64,000 nt of DNA from Stieleria varia (GTDB taxonomy: Bacteria; Planctomycetota; Planctomycetia; Pirellulales; Pirellulaceae), in NCBI RefSeq assembly GCF_038443385.1, contig NZ_CP151726.1, positions 5,766,001-5,830,000 of the forward strand, given 5' to 3'. This document shows, piece by piece, positions 5,914-51,080 of this stretch. Position 1 is the first letter of the stretch, and each line of letters begins with the position of its first letter. The translations under genes were made by a program, and so were the position numbers. The notes below the pieces were generated by a model, which made no database searches, was not told the origin of the DNA, and saw nothing but the letters and a program-made list of their open reading frames with translations.

Positions 5914-5946
5914 TTGGTTCTCTCAACGTGGGTTCAGACATCCGTC

Positions 5947-6858: not shown

Positions 6859-6866
6859 CGCTCGAT

Positions 6867-7700: not shown

Positions 7701-8900
7701 ATGTCGGTACGGAAGCTGACGGCGAGTTTATTAACTGCCCTTTTGATGCTGAGCGGATTCGCAACCGCATCGGTCTCTGCACAGGAACACTTTCCCGCTG
7801 CAGATCCCCTTGCGTTTGATCCCGACTTTCGTTGGTTCGAGCCCATCTATGACATGGACTTGGCCGACCTCAAGCCCAAGCATCGAGCCAATACCGGTTG
7901 GTTTGCAACCTACGACCGACTGAACCTGTACGGTTCACGTCCTGAATTGAACGATCCCCAAGTTGCTGAAACCAAGTTGGACAGCGGTTGGGGCCATCGC
8001 TACGAAATCGGCTACATGTTGCCCGACGTAGACAGCGGCTGGCTTTTCAGCTCCGTTCAAAGCGGTGTCGGTGAGTTCTTCACCGTCGCACGTGAACGCG
8101 TCAACCGGGTCAACGAAGACGGATTTCAGCTGGGTGACGGCCTGGCCGGTCCACCCTTTGGATTCATCGTGCCCGCAGCCGACGACAACACACCCGGACT
8201 CAATACGCGGACGTACTTCGTCCAAGACACCGAGAACGTGTTCAGTTTCAACAGCTACGAACTGAGCAAGACTTGGCGAATGGAACCCTATCACTACGGC
8301 GGAATCATGGAGCCCATGGTCGGACTCCGCTGGTTCCGTATCGAAGACTTGGACTCGCGTCAAAACTACATTTCCTCGCTCGACATCGACCAGTCGATCG
8401 GCGGAAACCCGCCGCTGTCCGAATTCGGTGACGCGGTGGAGCAATTGACGACCAACCAATCGGTGACACAGAACGACACGCTGACCGCTCAATTGGGCTT
8501 CCGCTACACCAAGTTCCGTGATCGATTCACCTTCAGCAGCGATTTCCGAGCCTTTGCAGGCCACAACTGGCAGTGTGCTTACTCGACCACAGCAACTGAG
8601 ATCACGATCTACGACGGCACCGGAGTTGGTTCGGAAGTGGATAATATCCTGTATCGTCAGACTCGCCCCATCTATGAACGCAACGAAGAGTTTGTGGTCG
8701 GATTCGATGTTCGCGGCGAAGTCGGATACCAGGTCAGCAAGATGATCAAAGTGCGAACGGGGTTCCAGCTGATCGACATGGCTCGCGGCATCTGGCGAGG
8801 CGGTTCCAGCGCCAGCGGGGTCAACCCACTGGGCGGAGGCGACAACGATCAAGACCTGTTGCTCGTGGGTGCAACCTTCGGCATCGAGCTGAATCGATAG
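7701..8900 (+). CDS. BBP7-family outer-membrane beta-barrel protein
   Basis: A 399-aa exported protein. The signal peptide spans about residues 1-28 (hydrophobic core LTALLMLSGFATASV, cleavage near VSAQE). The remainder alternates aromatic and polar residues in amphipathic strands, with WFATYDRLNLYGSRPE near the start, GLRWFRIED mid-protein and a final strand LLLVGATFGIELNR. This matches the planctomycete BBP7 group, predicted beta-barrels of the outer membrane. Function is unknown; structural or porin-like roles are guesses. I chose the ATG at 7701, which begins the signal peptide. It is monocistronic, ending just before a strong terminator. Confidence 0.8.
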   Translation: MSVRKLTASLLTALLMLSGFATASVSAQEHFPAADPLAFDPDFRWFEPIYDMDLADLKPKHRANTGWFATYDRLNLYGSRPELNDPQVAETKLDSGWGHRYEIGYMLPDVDSGWLFSSVQSGVGEFFTVARERVNRVNEDGFQLGDGLAGPPFGFIVPAADDNTPGLNTRTYFVQDTENVFSFNSYELSKTWRMEPYHYGGIMEPMVGLRWFRIEDLDSRQNYISSLDIDQSIGGNPPLSEFGDAVEQLTTNQSVTQNDTLTAQLGFRYTKFRDRFTFSSDFRAFAGHNWQCAYSTTATEITIYDGTGVGSEVDNILYRQTRPIYERNEEFVVGFDVRGEVGYQVSKMIKVRTGFQLIDMARGIWRGGSSASGVNPLGGGDNDQDLLLVGATFGIELNR

Positions 8901-8930
8901 CCGCTCAGCAGACACGTCGCCCCACCATCA

Positions 8931-8972
8931 AAAAAAGCCGCGTCGAGGACTCGTCCTCAACGCGGCTTTTTT
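8931..8972 (+). terminator. Rho-independent terminator after the BBP7-type gene
   Basis: A GC-rich stem (GCCGCG..GAGGAC / GTCCTC..CGCGGC) with a two-base loop is preceded by a run of A and followed by a run of T. The A-run and T-run symmetry makes it potentially bidirectional, so it could also serve the convergent small gene ending at 9074. Confidence 0.9.
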
Positions 8973-9073
8973 CGTTGTGTGTGGTAAATACCAAAGTCGC
9001 TTTGGCAGGATGACTTTGGCAGGGCAAGTGGCCAATCTCACGCTTCATGCATGAAGAATCGGTTCCTTGATTC

Positions 9074-9256
9074 TCAGGCTTTCGCAGCCAACTCTCGCAG
9101 TTCGTCCAACTCCTGTGCCAAGCGGTGACGCAGCGGGCTCTCTGGACGCAACTCTTCTTCTAACAACACCTCAGCTCGATCAAATGTTTCTTCCCTGCGC
9201 TCAGGGGTAGCCATCAGTTCTCGAAACATTTTCTCAACGGTGGACTCGGTAAGCAA
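9074..9256 (-). CDS. Small acidic helical protein, unknown function
   Basis: A 60-aa hypothetical protein, largely charged and predicted all-helical, for example ERREETFDRAEVLLEEELRP and HRLAQELDELRELAAK. The proposed start is TTG at 9256, because AAGGAG lies six bases upstream, a near-ideal Shine-Dalgarno sequence. The nearest ATG at 9229 would drop nine residues and has a weaker site. It has no Cys, no membrane segment and no recognised domain. The ribosome-binding site and even amino-acid composition favour a real gene. Confidence 0.6.
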   Translation of the reverse strand: MLTESTVEKMFRELMATPERREETFDRAEVLLEEELRPESPLRHRLAQELDELRELAAKA

Positions 9257-9532
9257 AACAATCTCCTTGCATGGACCAAATCGAAACGGGACTTCCAGTC
9301 GAATGCCTGCCGACGAAGCATTCTGTCGCCATACCGGGAGCCGTCCGATCCTATACCAATTCTAAAATCACTTTCCCGTCCCGCAAGGGCTAACTCGGGC
9401 GGAACCTGAGGGTATTCGCTCTCCGCATCTGCACCCGAATTGCAGATCGCAATCTTTACCGACATCAAGATCGTAGGTTGGCCACTCTTTGCCGACAGTT
9501 CACACTCGCATTTCACACTCGAAAGGGCAAGA

Positions 9533-9790
9533 GTGCCCACTGTCAACTTTCCCACGGTACCCGGGGGAGATCGCGCTCAGCCATTCAGGCGAATACGAGG
9601 GAGTCGGGCTATCTGCGAAAACCACCGATTGACAATGGCAAAACGCTTGGCGAGGCACGCTATCGACTTGGAAAGTCGAGCGACGATTGTCGTTCGACTT
9701 TCCAAGTCGAAAACGAACACCACCATCCGCCCAAACACAAATCATCCGCCTTGTGCCATCGGCGCAACGCTTACGTCCCCAGCCGCGCCG
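9533..9790 (+). repeat. Copy of the dispersed hairpin element
   Basis: The core is a 48-nt hairpin at 9663-9710: TCGACTTGGAAAGTCGA, a 14-nt centre, then TCGACTTTCCAAGTCGA. It is preceded by AAACGCTTGGCGAGGCACGCTA and followed by AACGAACACCACCATCCGCCCAAACACA. Those flanks recur at 42190-42455 in the same orientation and at 16464-16982 inverted. An in-frame reading through the element exists in one frame but tracks the palindrome, so I do not call a gene. The rest of 9257-9856 holds nothing else I recognise. Confidence 0.8.
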
Positions 9791-9856
9791 GGAGACGTGA
9801 CAGAACCGTGGCTAACGCCAAAACGGCTAACCCCAAAATCAAGACCGGACGATGCA

Positions 9857-10960
9857 CTAGCCCGCTTCTTCATCCAACAATGCGATCGGATACGACCCAA
9901 GCACCTCCAAACGCGTCGTTTGGCCGCGTAACGACTCGACGGCATGAAGCACACTTTTGTGCCGAATGTGCCCGGTCAGCTCGACAAAGAACAGATACTC
10001 GCTGCGCGACTGAGGCGACGGAAAGGATTCGATCCAAGTCAGATTGAGACTTTGGTCTCGAAAGATGGTCATCACTTCGGCCAGGGCCCCCGGTCGATGC
10101 GGCACTTGAAAGAGGATCGATGTCTTGTCGTTGCCCGTGGGCTCAGGTTCATCGGTCCCCAAAACCGCGAATCGCGTAACGTTGTTGGCGTTGTCCTCGA
10201 TGTTTTCGCCGATCACGTTCAACCCGTACTTTCGACCAGCCGGCAAACTGGCCACGGCCGCTACGCCGGGCGTATCAGCCGCGTGCATCGCCGCCGCGGT
10301 CGTGCTGCTGACCTCCACCAACTTGGCTTGGGGCAAATTTCCTGCAAGCCACATGCGACATTGTGACAACGCTTGCGGTTTGCTCTGCACTTCACGGATT
10401 TCTTCTCGCGGACTGAGCGAAAGCAAATTGTGGTGAATCGGCAGCAGGACTTCCCCGCAGATTCGCATGTGTCGCCTGACAAACATGCCCAAGGTGTCGA
10501 CCACACGCCCGTCGGTGCTGTTTTCGATGGGCACTAGGCCACTGCGCGAGTCTCCGCGGTGAACCGACTCAAACACCGCCGCAATCGTCGCCACCGGAGC
10601 GAAATTCGCACCTTCGCCAAAGTACTTCATGGCAGCCAGATGGCTGTAGCTGTACTGAGGGCCAAGAAACGAAACGTATTGTGAATCCACTGCGGCACGA
10701 CAAGCACTTGCAATGTGCTTGAGAGTTTCCGAAATCATCGGCCGATCCAGAACGCCGGTTTGCGAACACTCGGCGGCCAAGGCTTCGATGCGTGAAAACT
10801 CGGCCTGGGTGGTCTCCCGATCCGGCTGCTGTGCGACCATGCGCGCGCGTCGGATCATCCACTGAGCGAGTTGATGATCGATGGAGTCGATCGATACTTG
10901 GGCATCGACGTCCTCGCCTTGCCTTTCTTCCTCGGAATGCGTGCGATCGTTGGTGGTCAT
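9857..10960 (-). CDS. pheA: Prephenate dehydratase (P-protein type)
   Basis: PheA converts prephenate to phenylpyruvate, the committed step to phenylalanine. In this 367-aa form a short helical region (residues about 20-90) occupies the place of a chorismate mutase domain. The dehydratase domain begins at VSFLGPQYSYSHLAA and contains GLVPIENSTDGRV (about 142-154) and the catalytic NNVTRFAVLG motif. A C-terminal ACT domain (TSILFQVPHRPGALAEV, then LTWIESFPS) should bind phenylalanine for feedback inhibition. The mutase-like region keeps IDHQLAQWMIRRA but I cannot find the usual Lys and D-X-X-R-E residues, so mutase activity is doubtful. ATG at 10960 is chosen; an ATG at 11005 is possible. Confidence 0.92.
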   Translation of the reverse strand: MTTNDRTHSEEERQGEDVDAQVSIDSIDHQLAQWMIRRARMVAQQPDRETTQAEFSRIEALAAECSQTGVLDRPMISETLKHIASACRAAVDSQYVSFLGPQYSYSHLAAMKYFGEGANFAPVATIAAVFESVHRGDSRSGLVPIENSTDGRVVDTLGMFVRRHMRICGEVLLPIHHNLLSLSPREEIREVQSKPQALSQCRMWLAGNLPQAKLVEVSSTTAAAMHAADTPGVAAVASLPAGRKYGLNVIGENIEDNANNVTRFAVLGTDEPEPTGNDKTSILFQVPHRPGALAEVMTIFRDQSLNLTWIESFPSPQSRSEYLFFVELTGHIRHKSVLHAVESLRGQTTRLEVLGSYPIALLDEEAG

Positions 10961-11644
10961 TTCCGAACATCCATCACAAAAAAGAGACTGAGGGCAGTGC
11001 GTCATGTCGGTTTCTTGCTGCCCAGCCGCGTTGCCGGGCAATCAAGCAGCAGTCTGCCATCAGCCTCGGGTTTGAAAAGCCCACGTGGCGACGAAAAAGC
11101 GGAATCTCATCGTCGCAATGCAGTTTCTGATCTTTGGACGGATCGACGCAATGAAAGCGACACAACGGAAAGCTGGACCTGCCTTTGCGGCTGAGCCGGC
11201 CTCCAGAACAAGTACACCCCGTGACAGCACCAACCGTTCTGTCATTTTGACATGGCCTCGGGTCCGACGGATCGACCCGTTTTTTGTTCCCTGCCAAAAA
11301 AGTGCTGGTGGACGCTGACACCCCGTCTGCTTTGACGGATTCCGCAATGTTTTGCGAGGTTTTGTCCGTGGTGAGCATTACGCGGAGAATCTTTTTCGAA
11401 AAAAAGCCGCCGACTGGCACACCCTTTGCCACTGCTTGGTCCTTCGACACGGCAGGGCGAAATCGACAGCCCCGCCAATACGAGCCGCCAGCCGTATGAA
11501 ACCGAGTTGGCGGAAACACGCATTCCAGCAGAACACTGTTTTTACTCTGCCAATGCCCTCTCATCCCTGAGCCGCAACCCAACGGAGCTGCGACGGATGG
11601 CTGGCACATCGGCGAGGCCAACATCAGCGTCAGGAGATTACGAA
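10961..11644. other. pheA-dnaK divergent region and dnaK leader
   Basis: This 684-bp gap separates pheA and dnaK, which diverge. The only strong element I recognise is a sigma-54-like site at 11415-11430. Transcription from it would begin near 11441 and give a dnaK leader of about 200 nt. I found no CIRCE-type inverted repeat (TTAGCACTC-N9-GAGTGCTAA). The open frame upstream of dnaK is an extension without coding character. Confidence 0.55.
11415..11430 (+). promoter_or_regulatory. Sigma-54-type (-24/-12) promoter match upstream of dnaK
   Basis: The sequence CTGGCACACCCTTTGCC (from 11414) matches the sigma-54 consensus TGGCAC-N5-TTGC, with ten bases between the GG and GC elements as required. 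It is correctly oriented toward dnaK, 215 bp before the start codon. I see no matching enhancer-binding-protein site. A single chance match cannot be excluded. Confidence 0.5.
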
Positions 11645-13573
11645 ATGGCACAAGGCGAAAAGATCATCGGAATTGACTTGGGGACCACCAACAGCGTTGT
11701 CGCGGTGATGGAGGGTAGCGAGCCCAAGGTCATTCCCAATCCCGAAGGCAACCGACTGACTCCCAGTGTCGTCGCTTTCACGGACAAGAAAGAAACCATT
11801 GTGGGCGAACCCGCGCGTCGCCAAGCGGTGACCAACCCACAACGCACGGTTTACTCGGCCAAGCGTTTCATGGGACGTCGTCACCATGAGGTCGAGTCGG
11901 AAGAAAAGATGGTGCCCTACGGCGTGACCGGTGCCGCCGATGAATACGTCAAAATCAAGGTCGGTGACGAAGAGTACACCCCCCAGGAAATCTCCGCCAA
12001 GGTCCTGCGTAAACTGAAGGAATCCGCCGAGTCTTACTTGGGTCACAAGGTCAGCAAAGCCGTCATCACGGTCCCGGCCTATTTCAACGACGCCCAACGT
12101 CAGGCGACCAAGGACGCCGGACAGATCGCGGGCCTCGAAGTCGCTCGGATCATCAATGAACCGACCGCCGCCGCTCTGGCCTACGGCCTGGACAAGAAGA
12201 AAGACGAACGCATCATCGTGTTCGACCTCGGCGGTGGTACCTTCGACGTCTCGGTCCTCGAAGTCGCCGACACGGGTGACGACGAACAAGAAAGCCGAGT
12301 GTTCCAAGTGATCAGCACCAACGGTGATACGCACCTCGGTGGCGATGACTTTGACGAAGCTCTGATTCACTACGTCGCCGACTCCTTCAAGAAAGACAAC
12401 GCGATCGATCTTCGCAACGACCCAATGGCTCTGCAACGTCTGCAGGAAGCCTGCGAGAAGGCGAAGAAGGAACTCAGCACGTTGCCCGAAACGGACATCA
12501 ACCTGCCGTTCATCACGATGGACCAGTCGGGACCCAAACACTTGACGATGAAAATCACTCGCAGCAAGTTCGAGGAACTCATCGACCCGCTGGTCTCCCG
12601 CTGTAAACAGCCCGTCATGCAGGCTTTGGAAGACGCAGGCATCAAGCCGAGTGAAATCGACGAGATCGTGTTGGTCGGCGGCAGCACCCGCGTGCCCATG
12701 GTCCGCGATATGGTCAAATCGATCTTCGGCAAAGAACCGCACCAAGGAGTCAACCCCGACGAAGTTGTCGCGGTGGGCGCCGCCATCCAAGGCAGCGTGC
12801 TCGCCGGAGACCGTACCGACGTGTTGTTGCTGGACGTCACCCCGCTGACTCTCGGTATCGAGACCGAAGGCTCGGTGATGACCCCATTGGTCGAGCGTAA
12901 TACGACGATTCCGGTGGAAAAGAAGAACGTCTTCAGCACCGCCGCGGACAATCAAACCGCAGTGACCGTTCGTGTGTTCCAAGGCGAACGCAAAATGGCG
13001 GCACACAACCGACTACTCGGCGAGTTCAACCTCGAAGGCATCCCCGCACAACCGCGTGGCGTTCCTCAAATCGAAGTCAAATTTGATATCGACCAGAACG
13101 GTATCCTCAGCGTTTCAGCCAAAGAACTGAAAACGGGCAAGGAAGCGTCGGTCGAGATCAAGGAAGCCGGCGCGCTGAGCGAGGAAGACATCGAGAAGAT
13201 GAGAAAGGACGCCGAAGTCAACGCGGAAGAAGATCGTCGTCAGTTCGAATTGGCCGAAGCTCGCAATCGTGCAAACCAACAGATTCATCAGTTGGAAAAG
13301 GAGATGACCGAGAACGCGGACAAGTTGAGCGACGACGACAAGGAACCGTTGACCAAAGCGATCGAAAAAGTCAAAACCGCAGCACTGGGCGAAGACAAAG
13401 ACGCGATCAAGCAGGCGACGGACGAGTTGACGATGGCCCAACAAGCGTTCAGCAAAGTGCTGTACGAAAAGGCCGCCAGCAGCGAATCCGCTAACCCGTC
13501 CGCTGCCGGTGCGGCGACCGGAGATTCGGACGACGATGACGCCATCGATGCCGATTTCGAAGTCAAAAGCTGA
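11645..13573 (+). CDS. dnaK: Molecular chaperone DnaK (Hsp70)
   Basis: DnaK is the ATP-dependent Hsp70 that binds unfolded polypeptides with DnaJ and GrpE. The 642-aa product has [18 protein letters not shown] at the N-terminus, [34 protein letters not shown] and [14 protein letters not shown] in the nucleotide-binding domain, [14 protein letters not shown] at the linker, and an acidic tail ending DADFEVKS. The ATG at 11645 is preceded by AGGAG. No dnaJ or grpE flanks it; instead clpB lies 231 bp downstream on the same strand. Because a terminator separates them, the disaggregase pair is adjacent but probably not one transcript. Regulation may involve the sigma-54-like site upstream. Confidence 0.98.
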
Positions 13574-13661
13574 CATTGATTCATTCGGTTGGCAACGTGA
13601 ATCGCTCTCAAAATGATCGATTCACGCTGGGCAACTGAATCCCAGACCCACCGAGTTTGCA

Positions 13662-13689
13662 AGGCGGGCCTCAGGGCCCGTCTTTTTTT
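13662..13689 (+). terminator. Rho-independent terminator after dnaK
   Basis: A GGCGGGCC-TCA-GGGCCCGTC hairpin is followed by seven T residues. A second inverted repeat lies upstream at 13597-13627 (CGTGAATCG and CGATTCACG). The pair ends the dnaK transcript before clpB. Confidence 0.85.
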
Positions 13690-13804
13690 GCGCCTCCTCC
13701 GAAATCCATTCCCACCCCATTTCTCGCCCCCATCTCTCGCCCCACGACGTTTCTTTTCCTGAGACACGCGCTATCGCACGGCGGTCCGACTAGGAGTTTT
13801 CACG

Positions 13805-16453
13805 ATGACGTTTCGATTTGACAAACTGACCACCAAAGCACAATCGCTGGTCGCGGACGCTCAAGGCCGCGCGGGCGAATCGGGTACTCCCGAGATTTCA
13901 CCGCTGCACCTGATGGCAGCCATGCTGGCCGAAACTGATGGCATCACCCGACCGCTCATGAGCAAAATGAAGGTCGACCAACAGCAATTACAAGGACTCG
14001 TCGACAGCGAGATCGCCAAACTGCCCAGGGTCAGCGGTGGCCGACAGGCCGGCATCTCCGCGGAACTGCAAAATGTGTTCAACGAAGCCGCCAAGGTGGC
14101 GCAGTCGCTCAAAGACGAATACGTCAGCACCGAACACTTGTTGATGGGGCTCGCCAAAGCCGACAACAAGGTCAAGAAACTGCTGAGTCTCTGCGGCGTG
14201 ACTGCCGACGATGTGCTCAAAGCGATGAGCCAAGTCCGCGGTTCAGCTCGCGTGACCGATCAGAACGCGGAAGACACTTACCAGGCTCTCGAGAAATACG
14301 GCATCGACCTCACCCAGCTCGCCGCCGCCGGAAAACTGGATCCCGTCATCGGACGTGACAACGAGATCCGCCGCGTGATCCAAGTCCTCTCTCGCCGCAC
14401 CAAAAACAATCCGGTGCTGATCGGACAGCCCGGCGTCGGTAAAACGGCGATCGCCGAAGGCTTGGCGCTGCGGATTTTTGAGGGCGACGTGCCCACGAGC
14501 TTGAAAGAAAAACGGGTGATCGCGTTGGACATGGGAGCACTCGTTGCCGGGGCCAAATTCCGCGGCGATTTCGAAGAGCGTCTCAAAGCGGTCTTGCGCG
14601 AAGTGAAAGACTCCGACGGACAAGTCGTCTTATTCATCGACGAGTTGCACTTAGTTGTCGGTGCCGGTAAAGCAGAGGGTTCCGCCGACGCCGCCAATTT
14701 GCTCAAACCAGAACTCGCCCGCGGCGCGCTACGCTGCGTCGGCGCGACGACGTTGGACGAGTACCGTCAGTTCATCGAGAAAGACGCTGCGCTGGAACGA
14801 CGCTTCCAACCGGTCTACGTCGATCAACCGTCGGTCGAAGACACCATCGCGATCTTGCGAGGTTTGAAATCACGCTACGAGTCGCACCACGGCGTTCGCA
14901 TCACGGACAACGCCTTGGTTGCCGCAGCGACCCTCTCGAATCGGTACATCACCGACCGCTTCCTGCCCGATAAAGCGATCGACCTCGTCGATGAAGCCGC
15001 CAGTCGATTGGCGATGGAAAAGGAAAGCGTGCCCGAACCGATCGACCAAATCCAACGGCGATTGCGCCAACTGGAACTTGCCCACCGTCAACTGCTCGAC
15101 GAAGAAGAACCGTCGGCGATCGCTCGCAAGGAGGAGATCGAAGCCGAAATGGAGTCGCTGACTCGCGAACTGGCAAATCTGAGAGAGCAGTGGGAAAGCG
15201 AGAAAATGGGACTGGACGACGTGCAATCGATCCGACAAGAAATCGATCAGCTCGATCATCGTTTCGCCACTCTGGACGCCGAAGTCAAACAGAGACAACT
15301 GCGAGGTGAAATCGCTGAGGAGTTGTTCCAAGAAATGCTGGACGTGAGCGAGAAACGCAAGAAGCTGACCGAGCGACTGGAGGCGGCCGAGCATCAGGAG
15401 GAAAGCAAGAGCACGTCTGATGAGGAGAGCGGCACCCACCGCCGCTTGTTGCGTCGCGACGTGACCGATGATGAGATCGCGGAAGTCGTTAGCGCATGGA
15501 CGGGAGTTCCCGTCACTCGCATGCTCGAAACCGAACGCGCGAAGCTATTGGTCATGGAAGAACGATTGCACACCCGCGTGGTCGGTCAAGACAAAGCGGT
15601 CGCCGCCGTCTCAGATGCCGTGCGAAGAAGCCGTAGCGGGCTGCAAGATCCCCGTCGTCCGATCGGTTCGTTCCTGTTCCTGGGACCAACCGGCGTCGGC
15701 AAGACCGAGCTATGCAAAGCGCTTGCCGAGATCATGTTCGATGACGAGTCCGCCATGGTCCGTATCGACATGAGTGAATTCATGGAACGTCACAGCGTGT
15801 CGCGAATGATCGGGGCACCTCCTGGATACGTGGGGTACGAGGAAGGTGGAAAGTTGACCGAAGCCGTCCGAAGACGTCCCTACTGCGTGATCCTGTTGGA
15901 CGAAATGGAAAAGGCTCACCCCGATGTGTTCAACATTCTGTTGCAGGTGCTGGACGACGGACGGTTGACGGACGGCCAAGGTCGTACGGTTGATTTCACC
16001 AACACGGTGATCGTCATGACCAGCAATGCGGGCAGTCACGAAATCCAAAAGATCACCGAAGCGGGAGGTTCTCAGGAAGAACTGGAAGAGGCGGTGGGAG
16101 AAGTCCTGCGGGCGAGGTTCTTGCCAGAGTTCCTCAACCGAATCGACGACACCGTGATCTTTCATCCGCTGGGCAAAGAACAGATCCGCAAGATCGTCCG
16201 TCTGCAACTGACGTCCCTGGAGGCTCGGGTGAAAGAAAACGGCTTGATCCTGCAAGTCACCGACGCTGCAGTGGATCGTATCGCTGCTGTCGGCTACGAC
16301 CCCGCCTACGGAGCCCGACCCTTGAAGCGGGTCATCCAACGTGAAATCGAAAATCAGCTTGCCTCGTCACTGCTGAAACACGATTACGCCGAAGGCTCCG
16401 TCGTCCACGTGGACTTCAACGGAACGCACTTCGTGTTTTCGGGCGAAGAGTAA
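13805..16453 (+). CDS. clpB: ATP-dependent disaggregase ClpB
   Basis: ClpB is the Hsp100 hexamer that extracts polypeptides from aggregates and hands them to DnaK. The 882-aa product has the N-terminal Clp repeat domain (residues about 1-145), a first AAA+ module with Walker A GQPGVGKT near 207, a long coiled-coil middle domain (about 410-560, rich in Glu/Leu/Arg), and a second AAA+ module with GPTGVGKT near 628. It also has the sensor and C-terminal region [17 protein letters not shown]. The middle domain distinguishes it from ClpA and ClpC. AGGAG nine bases upstream supports the ATG at 13805. It is slightly longer than the E. coli protein. The dnaK-clpB order suggests joint heat-shock use. 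Confidence 0.97.
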
Positions 16454-41405: not shown

Positions 41406-42029
41406 GTGGACATCGAGGCCTCGAGTTCAGATTCCGCGTCTCAGCCGGACCGTTCTCTTGTCATGCAGATAAGGAATGGTGACGAATACGCTGCATCGCT
41501 TCTTTATCAACGCTACGCCCATCGGCTCATTGGTCTGATCCACAGCAAGATGAACGGTCACGTTTCGGTAGGAACAGAGCCGGAAGACATCGTGCAGTCG
41601 GTTTTTCGCAGTGTGTTTGGTCGCATGAAGTCGGATAACTACGATGCCCCGGAAGGCTCGACGTTATGGAGTCTGCTGGCTGTAGTAGCCGTCCGCAAGC
41701 TGAACAAGAACCGCACTTACCATCGAGCGCAGCGCCGCGACATCGGGCGTAACGTTGCGTTGGATGAAGCGAATGAGCCGTACGATAGTGATGACAACTC
41801 GCCCGATTCGTTCGCTGTGTGTCTCCGTGAGGCGATGGAACTGCTACTACCGATCGAGCAAACCGTCCTGCTATTGCGCATGGATGGCTACAACGTCGAG
41901 GAGATAGCCAAAAAGACGAAACGCGCAAAGCGAACGGTTGAACGCAGCTTTCGGAACATACGCGTTCGTCTCTCAGAGAGCTTGCTGCAGGAAGAACCCG
42001 AGCACCAGCCTGCGGACCAAGCGTCATAG
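41406..42029 (+). CDS. ECF-type sigma factor (paired with kinase, second pair)
   Basis: A 207-aa sigma factor. Region 2 is at about residues 18-90 (LLYQRYAHRLIGLIHSKMNGHVSVGTEPEDIVQSVFRSVF), with a longer insertion before DIVQSVF than usual. Region 4 is at about 135-195 (AMELLLPIEQTVLLLRMDGYNVEEIAKKTKRAKRTVERSFRNIRVRL). The start is GTG at 41406. Alternative starts further in would remove part of region 2. The stop codon lies inside the first copy of a 22-bp triplicate (42009-42074), so its last residues (PADQAS) come from repeat sequence. The kinase gene lies downstream on the same strand, with a dispersed element between them. Confidence 0.88.
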   Translation: MDIEASSSDSASQPDRSLVMQIRNGDEYAASLLYQRYAHRLIGLIHSKMNGHVSVGTEPEDIVQSVFRSVFGRMKSDNYDAPEGSTLWSLLAVVAVRKLNKNRTYHRAQRRDIGRNVALDEANEPYDSDDNSPDSFAVCLREAMELLLPIEQTVLLLRMDGYNVEEIAKKTKRAKRTVERSFRNIRVRLSESLLQEEPEHQPADQAS

Positions 42030-42455: not shown

Positions 42456-42735
42456 CTGCGGGTCAAGCGACGGCATCGTGGTGTCATTTGCCGATCGACA
42501 TCAAGTTTTTTGTCATTCTGGAAAACGATGGCGGGTTGATTAGATAGATTTGCCTAAACCTATTGAGCCGTTGAATCGGAAAACATGCTCAGTGGTTCGA
42601 GGAACTGAATGGCGTCGTAGCGGTACACCGTGGCTGTACAACGAACCTGTACACCGTGGCGCTGCACAGTTGATTCAACCGTTTGTGTCATTGCCGTTTG
42701 TGCATCTCAACAACTTGGATGAAAAGGTGTTTCCC

Positions 42736-45700
42736 ATGATCAACTCCATCGTATCAGACCCTGTGGAGGACGCGATTGATGATTTTGAAGAAGACTGGAG
42801 TGCGGAATCCCTGTCGACGATCCCTGAGTTGCTCAGACAATATGATCTGCTGGGCGATCAGGAAGCGTTGACAGAGCTATTGCGCATCGACATCGAGTTG
42901 CGTTACGCGCACGGCAAGTCCGTCGATTTGCAGAAATGCATCAAGGAGTTTGCGAATCTACTGACGAAGAAAGAGCACACGCAGATGGTTGCGTATGAGG
43001 ACTATCGTTCTCGGCGTGACCACGGCCTCTCGCTTCCGCTCGCTCGATGGCGTGATGTACCTGGGGTGTCAGACGCCTCCTGGTTCCGTGAGTTGATGCT
43101 GTCTCCCAACGCTTTTCACGGCATGCCTGCAATGTCAGCGTCAGCCATTCGACGCAATGGGCAGTCCGGTGTGGAATCTGTCGACTCCGACGAAGACTTG
43201 CTCGACAACCGATTCATGGCAGCGTTACGAGAGTCTGGATTTCAGCTCGTGGAGGAGATCGGCGCAGGAGAGCTCAGTCGTGTGTTCTTAGCGACTCAGC
43301 ATGAGCTGGCTGAACGATATGTCGTATTGAAAATCGTTCGCCGTCCGATGACGGAGCCGCAAGCGATGGCGATGTTGCAGCATACCAACATCGTTCCGAT
43401 CTATTCCTATCACTTGATCCAGTCGCACTGCGTCATTTGCATGCCGTACGCAGGACGTTTGACGCTGCAAGAATATCTCAATGGCCAACAGGACGCCAAC
43501 TCACGAAGTGGGCAAAGCTTGGTACGGACGGTACAAGCAAGCGTCAATGACACCAAGCTGTCGTTCGATGAGGATGCGACCGCGGACGGGTTATCCATCC
43601 CGACGGTTTTGTCGCCGGCTGCTGATGACACGGCTGTTCGCAAGCCGTTGGAAAAACTATCTGAATTGGGCCGCGACAAGCTGGCGTTATGGTTATTCAA
43701 ACGCTTGGCTGCCGCTCTCGCTCATGCTCACGCTCGCGGTGTGATGCACAACGACCTTAAACCCGGAAATATCCTGATTCGCAACGACGGCGAACCGGCA
43801 CTATTGGATTTCAATCTGGCACACCATGTCGGCGAAGCAAAACCACAGGCGATCGGTGGGACGCTGCCCTACATGGCACCCGAAGCCCTGCAGGCTTTGC
43901 TGGGAGACGATGCACGGTCCACCGAAGTGACTGATGTCTATGGGCTGGGGGCCATCATGTTTCAGTTCGTTACCGGACGACTGCCCTTTGAGGGACCAGG
44001 GTCTGCCGATCCAGAGCAATTGAAACGAGCGATCGAGAATCGACGAGGATCTCCAAGCTGGAGACCGACAGACAAACTGAGCGTCGGGTTGAAATCGATC
44101 ATCAACCTCACCTTGCATGCCGATCCGGCTCTTCGTTATTCGTCGGCCGAATCTCTGGCAGGAGATTTGAAAAGGGAGTTCAGCAATCAGCCCTTGCTGG
44201 TGGCCCCAGAGGCGTTGAGGCAGCGAATTGCCAAGTGGTTTCGGCGAAATCCAAGAGCGACCTCCGGTGGCGCAGTCGCGGCGTTGCTGTTGTCCGCGTT
44301 GATTCCGCTAGCGGTCTTTGCCAGTGTGGCGATCGAAAACACAAAGTCGCTTGCGGCGTTCAACCGTGCCCGTGATTTCTCTGCACGGTCAGATGACGCA
44401 CTTTCCATCATGATGGCCGACCCTAGACGCAATGAGCTGTCACCGATCCAAGACGCCATGGCTCCTCTTTCTGATTTTGATCTGCTGACCCCTGATGGCG
44501 TGGACGATCTCGTTTCCGAATATCTGCCCGCAGCAAATCGACAGGAAATGAGGCAACGTGTACTTCGCCACGCCGGGCAAGTCGCGTTTTTTGAAATCGA
44601 CCGACTGGAGCCGATGGCCTACAAAGGCGAGCTGACACCGGGCGACCTCGACACGGCAACCTCACTTGTGGATACCGTCCGTCGAGTGACCTCCGACTCC
44701 ACGTCGCGCTCGAGCCTCTGGCTGCAGTCCATGCTCGCAGGACTGCGAGGCGACAAGGCAAACGAGGCGAAATTTGCGACCGCAGCCGAAGATTGCAAGA
44801 TGACAAATGATTCCGAGGAATACCTCGAAGCCGTTCGTTTGATGTCGCTGCAGCGGTACGAGGAAGCCCGGGAGATGCTGACGATCTTGGCGGACCGAGA
44901 CACAATCCCGTCGGCATTGCGGTGGACCGGGTTGGGGAGATCGCAGTTGCAGAACGGGCAGTACGAGGACGCAAAGCTCTCCTTCACCCAATCCATCAAT
45001 CGCGCCAAAGACTCTACAGCGTTGTACTTCCTTCGTGGCCTCTGCTTTGAGAACCTGCGACAAAGAGATCGAGCAATCGAAGACTTCAACAAGTCAATCG
45101 AATTGAATCCTGAGAACACCTTTGCCTTGGGGCATCGCAGTTCCATTTACCAGAACACCAAACGCCATCGAGAAGCCATCGATGACCTGAACCGACTGCT
45201 TGAACTTCGCCCAGAAAGTGCCCGCAACTTGCTCGCTCGAGCACGCTCCTACCGAGCCATCGGTGAACAAGAACTGGCGGATCAGGATTTCAAGCGAGCG
45301 TTTGAAGTTGAAAGCAGCGATTTCAATTCGTCCAATGCGAGAGCCAGTGTGTTGATGGCCAAGCAAGACTACGAAGGCGCTCTGCAAGAGTACTTGAGGG
45401 CTGATGCAGAGAATCCCAACGATGCGGTCACGTTGAAAAAGATCGCTGACTTGCTTTCAATCCATCTGCATCGCGAATCCGAAGCCATCGAGATGTACAG
45501 TCGCGTGATCGAGATACAGAAACTCAACGAGTCAGCGCTCATTGATCGTGCCGTGCTGCTCGCTCGGGCTGGCAGATTTGAGGAAGCCAAAGAGGACATG
45601 GAAAAAGCGCTCAAGCAACCCAATGCAAAGGCAACCTTGTATCAAGCCGCTTGTGTCTGTGCGTTGATGCCGTTCGAGCAGAGCCACAAACGTGCCCTTC

Positions 45701-45849
45701 GATTTCTGGCTTTGGCCCATGCAGCGGGATACCAGAGTAGCAGTATCGAAACGGGCGACCTGGCGACAGACCCTGACCTCGCCTCTCTCCATGGCCTGGA
45801 TGGCTTCCAAGAAATCCTTCGCGTCTATCAGCTCTCCGCTGCCAGGTAA
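42736..45849 (+). CDS. Ser/Thr kinase-like protein with TPR domain and atypical catalytic motifs
   Basis: A 1037-aa protein. The kinase-like domain (about residues 168-490) has IGAGELSRVFLATQ in place of the G-X-G-X-X-G loop, VVLKIV with Lys 199, HNDLKPGN in place of HRD, DFNLAHH in place of DFG, and GGTLPYMAPEAL. An insertion of about 70 residues lies between the hinge and the HND motif. One transmembrane segment follows at about 555-580 (AALLLSALIPLAVFASVAI), then TPR repeats to the C-terminus (for example AIEDFNKSIELNPEN, AIDDLNRLLELRPES). Loss of the third glycine, of the HRD Arg and of the DFG Gly suggests reduced or altered catalysis. AAGGTG precedes the ATG. It is paired with the upstream ECF sigma gene. 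Confidence 0.88.
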   Translation: MINSIVSDPVEDAIDDFEEDWSAESLSTIPELLRQYDLLGDQEALTELLRIDIELRYAHGKSVDLQKCIKEFANLLTKKEHTQMVAYEDYRSRRDHGLSLPLARWRDVPGVSDASWFRELMLSPNAFHGMPAMSASAIRRNGQSGVESVDSDEDLLDNRFMAALRESGFQLVEEIGAGELSRVFLATQHELAERYVVLKIVRRPMTEPQAMAMLQHTNIVPIYSYHLIQSHCVICMPYAGRLTLQEYLNGQQDANSRSGQSLVRTVQASVNDTKLSFDEDATADGLSIPTVLSPAADDTAVRKPLEKLSELGRDKLALWLFKRLAAALAHAHARGVMHNDLKPGNILIRNDGEPALLDFNLAHHVGEAKPQAIGGTLPYMAPEALQALLGDDARSTEVTDVYGLGAIMFQFVTGRLPFEGPGSADPEQLKRAIENRRGSPSWRPTDKLSVGLKSIINLTLHADPALRYSSAESLAGDLKREFSNQPLLVAPEALRQRIAKWFRRNPRATSGGAVAALLLSALIPLAVFASVAIENTKSLAAFNRARDFSARSDDALSIMMADPRRNELSPIQDAMAPLSDFDLLTPDGVDDLVSEYLPAANRQEMRQRVLRHAGQVAFFEIDRLEPMAYKGELTPGDLDTATSLVDTVRRVTSDSTSRSSLWLQSMLAGLRGDKANEAKFATAAEDCKMTNDSEEYLEAVRLMSLQRYEEAREMLTILADRDTIPSALRWTGLGRSQLQNGQYEDAKLSFTQSINRAKDSTALYFLRGLCFENLRQRDRAIEDFNKSIELNPENTFALGHRSSIYQNTKRHREAIDDLNRLLELRPESARNLLARARSYRAIGEQELADQDFKRAFEVESSDFNSSNARASVLMAKQDYEGALQEYLRADAENPNDAVTLKKIADLLSIHLHRESEAIEMYSRVIEIQKLNESALIDRAVLLARAGRFEEAKEDMEKALKQPNAKATLYQAACVCALMPFEQSHKRALRFLALAHAAGYQSSSIETGDLATDPDLASLHGLDGFQEILRVYQLSAAR

Positions 45850-45931: not shown

Positions 45932-47956
45932 ATGTCGAAACTTTCATCCAAAAACATCCTGACAAATAGTCAATTTCAGACGCTGGAAGACCGCCGAATG
46001 CTGGTCAGCTACGCTACTCCATGGCCAGACGCCCACGGCCTGACCATCAGTTTCCCAAATGATGGCGTTGAAATCGCAAGTCATCAGAACAACGTCAATG
46101 AAACGTTGGACGCCGTTGCCTCAACGGAGCAGTGGCAGGAACTGGTGCTGCGTGCCTACCAAACGTGGGCGATTCATGCGGACATCAATGTTGGCGTTCG
46201 AAATGATTTTGATTCTCCCTTCGGAACGCCCGGTATGACGACCGGCGATCCACGGTTCGGTGAATTCAGGATCGGTGCCATTCCTCAGGAGGGCGCCTTG
46301 GCAAATTCGATTCCGTTCCAAGCCGCTGCGGGGACTTACTCTGGCGACCTGGTTCTCAATTCAAACGAATCGTTTCACTACCACGATTGGGCCGGCGGCG
46401 TGGGACCAGACCCGAGCTCATTGAATGCGGAGGACAGAGACTTGTTCAGTCTCTTGCTGCACGAAACTGGCAACACACTCGGGCTGGAGGACACCAGCGA
46501 CTCGTGGATGGTCATGTTCCGCCAGTACACGACTCCCCGAGGAATTCTGAGCCAGGAGGACATCGACGCGATTCAGTCCATCTATGGGGCTCGCACGGAC
46601 CCGTACGAGCAAGTCGACAATGGCCAAATCCAAGTATCCACCGTGATCAGCACCCCAACCGGCTTCAGCCCGACAACGGAAGTGCTCCGAGTTCCAGGCA
46701 GTCTGTACCAGTCATCCGACGTCGACCACTACAAAATCGTTCCGGCCGCCGGACAAGATGCTGTCACCATCCGCTTGCGCGCCTCAGGAATCAGCCTCCT
46801 CAAATCACGACTGCAATTGCTGGACGCGAGTGGACAAATTCTTTCAGAAAGCTTGTCCGAATCGGTCACTGACAACGACAACGTTTTGCAAGTCAACGGG
46901 ATTGCGGGACTGGATGCGATTTACATTCGCGTGGTCCCCTCAGACCCCACAGATGTTTACTCTGTCGGGGATTACGAGTTGCAGATCGACTACCGCGACG
47001 TGGCGGTTCAAGCGATGGACGTGACACCAGGGGTGTACGACGCAGGTCCCGATGCAGTCTTTGCAAACTTTGAATTGATTACCGATGAGCTTTCAGCCAA
47101 CAACACGATCGCGGATGCGGAAACGCTTGTGGCTGAGACCGCGACTGGAGTTTCCGATCGATATGAGTTCGAGTCATCGGTCTCGGCAGCAACAGACATC
47201 GACTTCTTTAAGATCACCGCTCCCAACGATGTGCAAGGCAGGCTCGTGGTTCACGTCAATGGTGTCGGCGCTGATCACCCGGATGTTCGAGTCAGTGTTG
47301 TCGATTCCAACGGCCAACCCGTGGGGACCTCTGCACGGCTTCGTAGCGATGGTACTTACACGCTCGAAGTCGCTCAGCCCGCACCCAATGCGGACTACTT
47401 TCTACGAATCAGCGTTGATCCGAATTCCGCAGTCGGTGTCGGGAACTACGTAGCGCTCGCGCATTTTGAAAGCCCCAGCACCGTGATGGCTCCAATGTTT
47501 GCTGGGCAAGCGTCGGATGATGGCGACACGTTCCTGCGATGGACCGCGGAAAAGTCAAAGCTGTTCCGCTTTGACCTTGCAGTTTCCGGCGGATTGCCAG
47601 ATCAGTCGGTGCGATTGTCGATCTATGACGCACACACGCGTCAATTGCAGTTGACGTTCTTGTCAGCAACCGAGTTGACTCGAAGTGCGATGAGCTGGTT
47701 AGAGCAAGGCGATTACATCCTGCAGTTTACGGCCAACTCTGTTGATGGTCAGTCTGTCCAGGGTTTGACATATTCCATTTCGTGCGATGGTCTGTCAGAC
47801 GACCAAGATGGGGACTCGGAGGATCCGTCTCAGAATCCCTATTACGAACCTAATAACTACACTTACGAGTACCCCAATTACGAGTACGAGTACCAGTATG
47901 AGTACCAATACCCGCCTTATACCTACTACGATCCCTATGCCTACTACCAACCTTGA
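45932..47956 (+). CDS. Secreted matrixin-like protein with degenerate zinc site and Tyr-rich tail
   Basis: A 674-aa protein. Near the N-terminus TLEDRRML (about 17-24) is a LEPR-XLL-like motif of planctomycete exported proteins; no ordinary signal peptide is obvious. Residues about 40-225 resemble a matrixin-type metalloprotease, but the zinc motif reads HETGNTLGLED (His 177, Asn 181, Asp 187) where HE-X-X-H-X-X-G-X-X-H/D is expected. The Met-turn could be in SDSWMVMF. Residues about 240-360, 380-490 and 500-610 look like pre-peptidase C-terminal-type beta domains. The last 39 residues contain 17 Tyr, with EYEYQYEYQY and YTYYDPYAYY. The kinase-like gene ends 82 bp upstream; the sulfotransferase gene follows after 343 bp. 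Confidence 0.8.
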   Translation: MSKLSSKNILTNSQFQTLEDRRMLVSYATPWPDAHGLTISFPNDGVEIASHQNNVNETLDAVASTEQWQELVLRAYQTWAIHADINVGVRNDFDSPFGTPGMTTGDPRFGEFRIGAIPQEGALANSIPFQAAAGTYSGDLVLNSNESFHYHDWAGGVGPDPSSLNAEDRDLFSLLLHETGNTLGLEDTSDSWMVMFRQYTTPRGILSQEDIDAIQSIYGARTDPYEQVDNGQIQVSTVISTPTGFSPTTEVLRVPGSLYQSSDVDHYKIVPAAGQDAVTIRLRASGISLLKSRLQLLDASGQILSESLSESVTDNDNVLQVNGIAGLDAIYIRVVPSDPTDVYSVGDYELQIDYRDVAVQAMDVTPGVYDAGPDAVFANFELITDELSANNTIADAETLVAETATGVSDRYEFESSVSAATDIDFFKITAPNDVQGRLVVHVNGVGADHPDVRVSVVDSNGQPVGTSARLRSDGTYTLEVAQPAPNADYFLRISVDPNSAVGVGNYVALAHFESPSTVMAPMFAGQASDDGDTFLRWTAEKSKLFRFDLAVSGGLPDQSVRLSIYDAHTRQLQLTFLSATELTRSAMSWLEQGDYILQFTANSVDGQSVQGLTYSISCDGLSDDQDGDSEDPSQNPYYEPNNYTYEYPNYEYEYQYEYQYPPYTYYDPYAYYQP

Positions 47957-48299
47957 TCGATGAGTCTTCTGACTCTGCGTAGGCTCTGCTAATTTTCAGC
48001 AAAGACCATCGACGTACAGCACTTCCTCGTTGGCGAACTGATGTGATTGGCCAGAATGGCTTGATTTGTTGAGTCGCTTCTCGTCGCGAGATTGAGTGAA
48101 CGAACCTCTTAGGAGAGCGGTGAAAGAGCGAATGCCCATGGAACGGCGCGTTCGTGATCACTTCGATCGAGACGAACAAAAGACCACGTTCATCGGTGAT
48201 CCCTAAGCGTCCCTTGCCGCTCGCCTTGCCAAACTAAGCTGCGTTTCGCAGTTCCGCTACCCGTACGCGCCTACATCAATTTTACTCGGAGTTGAGAAC
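47957..48299. other. Intergenic region between the Tyr-rich protein and sulfotransferase genes
   Basis: A 343-bp gap. I see no terminator, dispersed repeat or gene. The last bases before the GTG at 48300 include CGGAG, a plausible ribosome-binding site. The promoter is not identifiable. Confidence 0.45.
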
Positions 48300-50321
48300 G
48301 TGATTTCGAATCAGTCCCCTTCAGAAACATTGCTTGTTCAGCTCTGTGATCGTGGACGCAAATCTGCGGTGCAGTCGCGAGAATCGATCATCCGAGATGC
48401 TCGTCAACAACTGCAGCGTTCACCCATTAGCGTCAATGATGTGCATGTCGTGGCTGCTGCTGCGTTGACACGTCGCCGGCCAGATCGGACTCTTGATCTG
48501 TTGGATCGCTATGCTACTTTTTTGCTCGCCGATCCGACTGCCCGGCGAATCGAAGGATACGCTTTCCTCGAATCGGGGAATCTGTCCAAAGCAACCGAGT
48601 GCTTCAAACTCGCACTGGAGCTTGACCCCTGCTTGCCCGATTGCTGGTTTTTGCTGGGGCAGATCTCTGAACAGAGTGGAGAGATTCAGGGAGCGATGCA
48701 GTACTATCAGCGCGGGACGGTCATCGGCGATTATCAGCACCAATCCGCACTTGCGCTCGCCAATCTACAGTCGAAATCGGTCAGTCTCATCGACGCCATC
48801 CATACACTGAGGGTCAGCTTGCTCAGGGATCAACGAAGTGTTCCATTGAACAAAGCGTTGGCGGGGTTGCTCCGTCGACACGCACGAGTCCTGAGTCGAA
48901 AACGCAGGCCGTTGGAACAGCGGCGAGTTTGCGAAGAATCATTGCAGTGCTATCGAGTGGTGAACGCAGCCGCGCCGACATCTCGAACCGTATTGGCACA
49001 GGGGCAGTTGGAACAGCATCTTGAGATGTTTTCGCAATCGCTGAAAAGTCTCCAGAAGGCTGTCGAGCTGGATCCGACTTGTCCGCTCGCCCTGACGCAT
49101 TTGGCGAGTGCAAATGTGGACGATGGCAATATCGGCTTGGCTCTCGAGCAATTTCAAGCCGCGATGGCGATTGATCCCACGATGGCAATCACGCACTTTC
49201 GTTACACGCGGGCCAAGCGTTTTCAACCAGGCAAAGACACTGATCACTATTTGGCGGATCTGAAGGAGCTGGTTTCTCGACCGCAGCTCGCCGGTCCAAA
49301 GAAGCTGCACCTGCATTTTGCGATCGCGAAAATCTTGGAAGACATCGGCGAGTTTGAACAAGCCTGGTTCCACTACGATCAAGCCAACCATTTCAATCCC
49401 GGGCACAGCCAAACCAAGATTCGCAGACGGAGAATCTCAAAGCAGGCGGCGTCCCCTCTGCAGCAAACCGCGGACAGTGCGATCGCCTATTTTTCACAAG
49501 AGCGTATTCAAGCGTATCACAGGAACGCGAATCTCAGCGACAAACCAGTCTTCATCATTGGGATGCCTCGCTCTGGAACCACTCTGACGGAACAGATCTT
49601 AACCAGTCATGACCAGATCGCCGGTGCCGGAGAGTTGAAAGACATTGAACAGATCCGATGCCAGATCCAAAAGCAACATGGGCGATTGATGCGTTTGAAT
49701 CCTGAAACGGATGAACTGTCACCCCAACACCTGTACCCCAATATCTTGTCGAGTGTTCCCGCTGCGGAGATTCGTCGTTTTGCGGACATCTATCTGGAGC
49801 GACTCGATTCGTTTGGAGCCGAGCAATTGCGGGTCACCGATAAAATGCCGACCAATTTCATGCAGCTTGGATTGATTGCGATGATGTTTCCCAACGCAAC
49901 GATCATCCATTGTCGTCGCCATCCGATGGACGTTTTGGTTTCATCCTACTGTCAAAACCTCAGTGCGCCGTTCTGTGATTTGGAGCAGTGGATGTGCTAT
50001 CACCGTCAGTACCGACGAATGATCAGGCACTGGGAGTCGGTTTTACCGATGCCCATTCACACCGTAGACTACGAGGACTTGGTGTCCGATCCAGAGACCC
50101 ACAGTCGTGCACTGATCCGGCATTGCGGCCTGGAATGGCAAGAGAGTTGTCTGCAATTCCACAACAACGATCGCAGCGTTCACACGCCCAGCAAATGGCA
50201 GGTCAGACAACCAATGTACCGATCATCGGTTGAAAAGTGGCGTCGTTTTGAACCGCAACTGAGGACGATCCATCAGCGGATGGAGAGCGAACTGGCGGCC
50301 GAAGGTTGGCTAGAAAGCTGA
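48300..50321 (+). CDS. TPR-repeat sulfotransferase
   Basis: A 673-aa protein. TPR repeats occupy about residues 70-370 (DLLDRYATFLLADPTARRIEGYAFLESGNLSKATECF and similar). The C-terminal half is a PAPS-dependent sulfotransferase. The 5'-phosphosulfate loop is VFIIGMPRSGTTLTEQIL (about 416-433), and the 3'-phosphate motif is IIHCRRHPMDVLVSSY (about 535-550). The PRSGTTL form is shared with protein-tyrosine sulfotransferases and with other family members, so substrate is open. Start is GTG at 48300, with CGGAG upstream. TPR fused to sulfotransferase is common in planctomycetes. It directly follows the gene for the Tyr-rich secreted protein. Confidence 0.88.
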   Translation: MISNQSPSETLLVQLCDRGRKSAVQSRESIIRDARQQLQRSPISVNDVHVVAAAALTRRRPDRTLDLLDRYATFLLADPTARRIEGYAFLESGNLSKATECFKLALELDPCLPDCWFLLGQISEQSGEIQGAMQYYQRGTVIGDYQHQSALALANLQSKSVSLIDAIHTLRVSLLRDQRSVPLNKALAGLLRRHARVLSRKRRPLEQRRVCEESLQCYRVVNAAAPTSRTVLAQGQLEQHLEMFSQSLKSLQKAVELDPTCPLALTHLASANVDDGNIGLALEQFQAAMAIDPTMAITHFRYTRAKRFQPGKDTDHYLADLKELVSRPQLAGPKKLHLHFAIAKILEDIGEFEQAWFHYDQANHFNPGHSQTKIRRRRISKQAASPLQQTADSAIAYFSQERIQAYHRNANLSDKPVFIIGMPRSGTTLTEQILTSHDQIAGAGELKDIEQIRCQIQKQHGRLMRLNPETDELSPQHLYPNILSSVPAAEIRRFADIYLERLDSFGAEQLRVTDKMPTNFMQLGLIAMMFPNATIIHCRRHPMDVLVSSYCQNLSAPFCDLEQWMCYHRQYRRMIRHWESVLPMPIHTVDYEDLVSDPETHSRALIRHCGLEWQESCLQFHNNDRSVHTPSKWQVRQPMYRSSVEKWRRFEPQLRTIHQRMESELAAEGWLES

Positions 50322-50354: not shown

Positions 50355-51080
50355 CTAACCGTTCAGCGGGGGACTGATAAACATTGCCGCTCGGCGTGCA
50401 CACTCGTGCGATAGATAGACCAGTGTGCCCAAATTAGGAAAGTGGACGGTGGCATGAATCAAGTAAAAGTGATCTCCCAGCATTGTGTCGATGGCACGAC
50501 GATCCGCTTCGCTGTGATACTCGACGTAGACCGAGTCGATCCGATCAAGCCAATCTCGCAAGTCACGTAGGATCGGCACCTCGCATCCTTCGGTGTCGAT
50601 TTTCAAGATGGAGATCCGAGAGACTCCCAGAGCAGTGAGTTCACTGGATGCTTGCCGCAGAAAGACCGTCTCCGTTTGACCGCTCGTGGCATCGTGGGCG
50701 ATCACTGAGTTCTGCGCCGCATTGTTCGCACCGAGATAGAGAAGCGACTCCGTGTCTCGATCGTAGAGCCCGACGTTGCAGATGTTGATCTGCTGGATGT
50801 TGTGGGTGTTTCGTTCGAGATACTCGAACAGCCCTGGCGAAGGTTCGTAGGAAATGATCTTTGCGTCGGGGTATTTTGCATGAAACCAAATCGCTGCGGC
50901 ACCGACGTTTGCCCCCACATCGACGATTAGTTGCGGACGAAACTCGCCCGGCAAGACGAGAGGGTATTCCCGCCCGTCAAAAACGTCCTGAATGACGGTT
51001 CCCAGAATCTCGGACGTCGGGTGACGGATCAAGAAAGACCGCCCGTTTGCGGTTACGGTCCGGGAAGATGTCTCTGTCAT
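50355..51080 (-). CDS. FkbM-family methyltransferase
   Basis: A 241-aa SAM-dependent methyltransferase. Motif I is LIVDVGANVGAAAIWFHAKYP (about 52-72), followed by IISYEPSPGLFEYLERN and the post-motif ISILKIDTEGCEVPILRDL, the FkbM hallmark (K-X-D-X-E-G). FkbM enzymes O-methylate sugars, lipids or antibiotics, and here surface glycans are a likely target. No signal peptide, so cytoplasmic. It converges on the sulfotransferase gene with a 33-bp gap. Confidence 0.9.
   Translation of the reverse strand: MTETSSRTVTANGRSFLIRHPTSEILGTVIQDVFDGREYPLVLPGEFRPQLIVDVGANVGAAAIWFHAKYPDAKIISYEPSPGLFEYLERNTHNIQQINICNVGLYDRDTESLLYLGANNAAQNSVIAHDATSGQTETVFLRQASSELTALGVSRISILKIDTEGCEVPILRDLRDWLDRIDSVYVEYHSEADRRAIDTMLGDHFYLIHATVHFPNLGTLVYLSHECARRAAMFISPPLNG

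Follow-up and report, generated by a model that had tools for sequence, protein, structure and literature searches.

The window analysed here is a stretch of 64,000 nucleotides from Stieleria varia, a member of the family Pirellulaceae with a 9.72-Mb genome in a single contig (NZ_CP151726.1, positions 5,766,001 to 5,830,000 of the forward strand). It contains a cassette of four genes on the + strand: an extracytoplasmic function (ECF) sigma factor, a membrane kinase and, at the 3′ end, two genes here termed MATX and ST. MATX (45932..47956) encodes a predicted exported pseudo-matrixin of 674 residues, with a matrixin domain recognised by profile (PF00413, 1.9e-9). ST (48300..50321) begins with a GTG codon, 343 bp after the MATX stop, and encodes a tetratricopeptide repeat (TPR) sulfotransferase of 673 residues (PF13469, 2.3e-47, plus TPRs). 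An earlier note on this DNA, made from its letters, had described the two genes; the TPR-sulfotransferase with its PRSGTTL and RRHPMDVLVSSY motifs, lying 343 bp 3′ of MATX on the same strand, was confirmed by Pfam searches and the positions of the open reading frames (ORFs). We propose that ST is probably a bacterial tyrosylprotein sulfotransferase (TPST) with a single dedicated target, the MATX C-terminal tail, its activity being predicted and the tail its putative substrate.

The acidic Tyr-rich tail comprises 48 residues (47810..47953, + strand), which by composition counts include 17 Tyr, nine Asp or Glu and no Lys or Arg. MATX ends in NPYYEPNNYTYEYPNYEYEYQYEYQYPPYTYYDPYAYYQP, and all 17 Tyr lie within the final 38 residues, so that the number given earlier, 17 in the last 39, was exact. 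For comparison, 246 complete ORFs of at least 150 residues were taken from a 464-kb sample of the same genome; their last 40 residues contain 0.87 Tyr on average and five at most, against 17 in MATX. A simple DNA repeat does not account for the tail, since its DNA holds just a short and weak TACGAG tandem. Its Tyr codons are mixed (13 TAC and four TAT). The 16 intact tails of ST-linked MATX proteins are 41–58 residues long, with 12–25 Tyr, 9–17 Asp or Glu and, save for one residue in one tail, no Lys or Arg. Their sequence is not conserved and their composition is constant: alignments of close tail pairs gave 91 Tyr-Tyr columns, 14 of them with silent TAT/TAC switches, versus 17 columns of Tyr with another residue. 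Chance or low-complexity DNA as the source of the tail was rejected on the basis of the ORF background, the mixed codons, the weak repeat and this conserved composition.

The distribution of the two genes was surveyed in 241 genomes of the family, taking E<1e-180 as a close MATX (plus one frameshifted copy, in genome G006) and E<1e-90 as a close ST. Both are present in an identical set of 17 genomes from four genera (11 of the 14 genomes of the window's genus, two of another, one of a third and three of a fourth) and are jointly absent elsewhere, including from the remaining three of the window's genus. The MATX orthologues of the 16 further genomes are ∼46–58% identical to that of the window. 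The synteny that the earlier note had suggested checking across Pirellulaceae holds wherever either close orthologue occurs, the two genes being adjacent on the same strand in 17/17 genomes, usually with a gap of ∼0–200 bp. That the two genes are always neighbours, and are either both present or both missing, suggests a dedicated pair. In the frameshifted copy (L086), the MATX sequence is broken up among three frames, but its Tyr-rich tail is kept and the neighbouring ST has an open frame; the split gene may be a pseudogene or reflect assembly errors.

ST-linked tails were then set against those of 17 distinct MATX homologues that reach the C-terminus and have no ST. The last 40 residues contain 12–19 Tyr in 16/16 intact ST-linked proteins and 0–5 in 16/17 ST-less homologues (0–2 in 15 of them, five in that of G055); the remaining one, in G039, has 12. 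The association of a Tyr-rich tail with the presence of ST gave a Fisher probability of 1.5e-8, with kinship ignored. The aromatic residues of ST-linked tails are almost exclusively Tyr (263/270, 97%), compared with 26/83 (31%) in ST-less tails. Since the hydroxyl-bearing aromatic is preferred only where ST is present, the pattern is that predicted for a Tyr-modifying enzyme.

The gene immediately 5′ of MATX (42730..45849, + strand; the frame is open from a TTG at 42550) encodes a membrane Ser/Thr kinase with a C-terminal TPR domain, in which Pfam finds PF00069 (4.6e-34) and TPRs and which has a transmembrane segment at about residue 516. Phosphorylation of the tail tyrosines by this kinase, with ST incidental, is suggested by its position directly 5′ of MATX at nearly every locus, but we regard it as very improbable. 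The kinase gene lies 5′ of MATX at ST-containing and ST-less loci alike, and at the latter the tails are without Tyr; Tyr-rich tails thus track ST and not the kinase, whose best Pfam family is moreover the general protein kinase domain, of Ser/Thr type.

ST has the TPR-Sulfotransfer_3 layout, N-terminal TPRs followed by PF13469, and its AlphaFold2 model has a mean pLDDT of 90.2 and a pTM of 0.86. The sulfotransferase domain spans about residues 410–673 (49527..50318). It has the fold of sulfotransferases that use 3′-phosphoadenosine-5′-phosphosulfate (PAPS), with a PRSGTTL 5′-phosphosulfate loop (49566..49586) and the Arg and Ser of the 3′-phosphate loop RRHPMDVLVSSY (49914..49949). In HMMER alignments the catalytic residues of human TPST1, R79, E100 and K159 (PMC5562738), correspond to ST R424, E445 (49632..49634, joined to E100 by a gapless alignment) and K515 (49842..49844), a set that is not specific to Tyr acceptors. 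R424 lies within PRSGTTL, the loop that the earlier note had described as common to known TPSTs. Invariance was judged in two alignments, of 19 close and 40 distant TPR-sulfotransferases. The PRSGTTL loop, R424, E445 and K515 are invariant in both, as are T629, S631 and Q634 of a TPSKWQVRQP motif (50184..50213); R540 and S548 of the 3′-phosphate loop are likewise invariant. By its motif S631 is likely to be the counterpart of TPST1 S286, a position that lies beyond the alignment of ST with TPST1. Genes for adenosine 5′-phosphosulfate (APS) kinase, a PAPS-making enzyme, are present.

When the ST domain was searched against solved structures, human TPST1 was the first match, both with the single sequence (1.3e-6) and with a profile (3.9e-19); the profile was built from the ST domain alone, as a full-length alignment drew mainly TPR chains. 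A structural ranking, in which Foldseek matches were re-aligned with VIA-align, gave the same picture. For the ST domain, TPSTs take ranks 1–7 (Z 22.8–23.4 over 236–243 residues at 2.6–3.0 Å), and the next two matches are sulfotransferases of polyketide pathways (Z 19.5 and 18.9). After these come TPR domains, including that of O-GlcNAc transferase (OGT; Z 17.6).

The TPR superhelix, as defined by the helices of the AlphaFold2 model, covers about residues 27–410 of ST (48378..49529), has a net charge of +11 and is proposed to act as a tail-binding guide. The TPR charge is positive in 17/17 MATX-linked STs, from +2 to +21 with a median of +12. In other planctomycete TPR-sulfotransferases the median is −16, and for most members of the sister group it is −13. 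The basic ST TPRs are not a product of genome composition, because no charge shift is seen in the TPRs of the neighbouring kinase; for the same reason the kinase TPR domain was rejected as a reader of the tail. The TPR half of ST, basic where those of related TPR-sulfotransferases are not, therefore complements the acidic tail. A basic TPR groove would suit an acidic tail. The shift in TPR charge is, like the gain of the pair, a single evolutionary event.

Phylogenetic analysis of 63 STs places the MATX-linked enzymes in a single clade (support 100/99), nested in a group of Pirellulaceae STs (support 99/95). ST is confined to part of the family, whereas the sigma factor, kinase and MATX genes are found together across the order, and these three are the old part of the cassette. 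The sigma factor gene (41406..42026, + strand; PF07638, 7.5e-18) is the first gene of the cassette, and whether or not ST is present a homologue of it takes this place at nearly all loci.

A different account of the pair is that the genes are merely co-regulated and that ST sulfates some other surface target, for example an exopolysaccharide or a glycan carried by MATX. The tail would then have a job of its own, perhaps in adhesion, dityrosine cross-linking or aromatic stacking. That members of the wide TPR-sulfotransferase family adjoin unrelated genes speaks for it, as does the use of the sulfotransferase fold on small molecules and polyketides, illustrated by the CurM and OLS matches, and it would also accommodate the Tyr-rich tail of G039, which exists without a TPR-sulfotransferase. 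However, it does not predict that Tyr-rich tails should track ST, that Phe and Trp should be excluded solely in the presence of ST, or that the TPRs should turn basic in the MATX-linked clade. Nor was any glycosyltransferase or polysaccharide gene found as a fixed member of the cassette in the loci compared across the family. We therefore consider another surface target unlikely.

Sulfation of the tail by ST, which we infer from the co-occurrence of the two genes, the association of Tyr-rich tails with ST and the TPST-like fold, as the earlier note had proposed from proximity and composition, has several observations weighing against it. The earlier description of the tyrosines as lying beside Glu stands in so far as the tail is strongly acidic and, in the window, free of Lys and Arg, but adjacency beyond that of shuffled tails was not seen: Asp or Glu neighbours Tyr in 130 of 277 cases, compared with 129.9 ± 7.5 after shuffling. 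A positional Tyr-acid motif was accordingly rejected, there being nothing beyond composition. The high rank of the TPSTs in the structural comparison is due in part to the limited choice of sulfotransferases with known structures. TPR-sulfotransferases of unassigned substrate share the fold and catalytic residues, which thus show the chemistry, not the acceptor. All 17 pairs stem from one clade, so the pair counts are not all independent events. The pairing has one clear exception, the MATX homologue of G039 (L113:4475-6553), whose 12-Tyr tail is a mixture of Tyr, Phe, Trp and Cys; no TPR-sulfotransferase was found in that genome, only PF13469 proteins without TPRs (judged by open-frame length), and a Tyr-rich tail can thus arise for another reason. 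Finally, the earlier note had reckoned with the sulfotransferase occurring in most relatives without a Tyr-rich partner. This is not so in the MATX-linked clade but is so in the wide TPR-sulfotransferase family, where a Tyr-rich neighbour occurs at 2/79 loci, both in Blastopirellula. TPR-sulfotransferases as general partners of Tyr-rich proteins were rejected for the broad family (77/79 loci without), and our claim is limited to the MATX-linked clade.

We also considered a wider version of this proposal, compatible with it, in which ST modifies several Tyr-rich exported proteins and MATX is one of many. The other STs of the Pirellulaceae group mostly adjoin giant exported proteins with an LExRxxL-type start, some of which are Tyr-rich (5–7.7% Tyr in the Blastopirellula group), and the window's own genome has other Tyr-rich proteins. 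The link to the giant proteins is a real synteny but lends no strong support, because their Tyr comes partly from repeated domains (GTYYxGVSS, RHS-like), and the fixed adjacency and joint absence of ST and MATX favour a dedicated pair. We regard a broader use of ST as possible, though less likely than not. In the Blastopirellula group, three loci (L254, L255 and L256, in G084 and G085) encode exported giants of at least 4,900–5,500 residues with ∼6% Tyr, directly 3′ of a TPR-sulfotransferase; these proteins contain repeats such as YYIGVSSYYNRYY and may be further substrates. In G213 (L251, ∼244-756 and 5606-14499), an APS kinase gene lies ∼5 kb from a second TPR-sulfotransferase, and after this enzyme comes a large exported protein that has an LExRxxL-type start and RHS-like repeats. 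Another Tyr-acid segment of the window's genome is found in a 1424-residue coiled-coil protein (L261:7065-11336, minus strand), where repeats of Tyr and acidic residues (GYSEDGYSEDGYSETGY) lie towards the C-terminal part.

In the proposed mechanism, MATX would be made in the cytoplasm from the four-gene cassette. The basic TPR superhelix of ST would bind the flexible acidic tail of the new MATX and feed it to the TPST-like catalytic domain, which would use PAPS to O-sulfate several of the 12–25 tail tyrosines. After sulfation MATX would be exported via its N-terminal signal, and a dense polyanionic sulfotyrosine tail would be displayed outside the cytoplasm, probably binding basic proteins or other surface matrix. 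By analogy with RaxST and RaxX for the timing and with OGT for the TPR guide, the tail would most probably be sulfated in the cytoplasm before export. We put at about even the chances that Pirellulaceae make a poly-sulfotyrosine tail in this manner, with a TPR-guided, OGT-like bacterial TPST acting on many Tyr of one exported protein.

The animal TPSTs (human TPST1 and TPST2, tick TPST) are the best structural matches of ST and share its PRSGTTL loop, with the catalytic Arg, Glu and Lys in register (PMC5562738), and their substrates, which are acidic, flexible stretches with Tyr in exported proteins, resemble the MATX tail. ST, an enzyme of predicted activity, differs from them in being bacterial, in its fusion to a long TPR superhelix and in its identity of only ∼20%. 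The membrane anchor of metazoan Golgi TPSTs, type II with a luminal catalytic domain, is absent from ST, the N-terminus of which is soluble TPR; RaxST likewise has no anchor (PMC9372746). In Xanthomonas, RaxST sulfates the product of the neighbouring gene, RaxX, in the cytoplasm, and export follows (PMC6637879, PMC9372746), which is a precedent for the order of events proposed here. As in that system, the sulfotransferase gene stands beside the gene for an exported protein, in this case the putative substrate. The RaxX precursor has 60 residues, carries its sulfate on Tyr-41 and leaves the cell through a type I system (PMC6637879), whereas MATX has 674 residues, 12–25 candidate Tyr and an LExRxxL-type start, and its enzyme is a TPR fusion. 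The recognised neighbours of ST are the sigma factor, the kinase and MATX, and no raxA/raxB-type genes or small RaxX precursor were found beside it.

Fibromodulin and osteoadherin, unrelated proteins of the vertebrate extracellular matrix, resemble MATX in carrying a terminal Tyr-rich acidic extension of variable sequence and constant composition on a secreted protein (PMC7310474, PMC9372746); sulfation has been demonstrated for several such proteins and is predicted for MATX. Sulfotyrosine-rich acidic tracts of the fibromodulin type have collagen and heparin-binding proteins as ligands (PMC7310474, PMC9372746), and by analogy the displayed MATX tail would act in the same way. OGT and SPINDLY, like ST, place a TPR superhelix before a protein-modifying transferase, but their catalytic domain is an unrelated glycosyltransferase. 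Bacterial TPR-sulfotransferases with PF13469, as in Blastopirellula marina and proteobacteria, have the layout and catalytic motifs of ST, but their TPRs are usually acidic or neutral and outside Pirellulaceae they have no Tyr-rich neighbour.

Tyrosine sulfation is regarded as rare in bacteria, where it is known mainly from RaxX, a small peptide of a plant pathogen. According to a 2022 review, most bacteria encode no TPST, and RaxST-RaxX of Xanthomonas is named as the producing case; unpublished observations cited there place bacterial TPST genes often near genes for extracytoplasmic proteins and export (PMC9372746). For Planctomycetes, our literature search, which took in few subscription papers, turned up no account of tyrosine sulfation. 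If the proposal is correct, ST and MATX would be a second system, probably unrelated to RaxST-RaxX, by which large bacterial surface proteins come to carry sulfotyrosine. The tail would be the bacterial equivalent of sulfated tails of the fibromodulin type, encoded in a cassette with an ECF sigma factor and a membrane kinase. We know of no earlier bacterial system of multi-site tyrosine sulfation, and this would be the first. Part of the wider TPR-sulfotransferase family could then be read as protein sulfotransferases, giving this large family a testable function, and ST, being soluble, could be of use as an enzyme tool with which to install sulfotyrosine.

Immediately 3′ of the pair in the window is an FkbM methyltransferase gene (50355-51080, minus strand), for which no homologue was seen next to the pair in related genomes. 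The description of MATX as a secreted-type protein holds, by way of a planctomycete LExRxxL-type N-terminus (LEDRRML, 45983..46003, read directly) instead of a classical signal peptide. Its export is supported by some ST-less homologues (e.g. L108, L111), because signal-peptide-like starts occupy the place of the LExRxxL motif there. At the position of the matrixin zinc site, consensus HExxHxxGxxH, MATX has the degenerate HETGNTLGLED (46460..46492), and the second and third His are replaced in nearly all homologues; since HExGN..G..D stands in place of the consensus, MATX is probably no active protease. The replacement, HE[AT]GN..G..D, is itself conserved at loci L083-L122, in ST-containing and most ST-less homologues, and may mean either that the protein is a conserved pseudo-protease or that its metal site is an unusual one. 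An exception is the homologue at L116, which has the canonical zinc site HEAGHVFGLDH.

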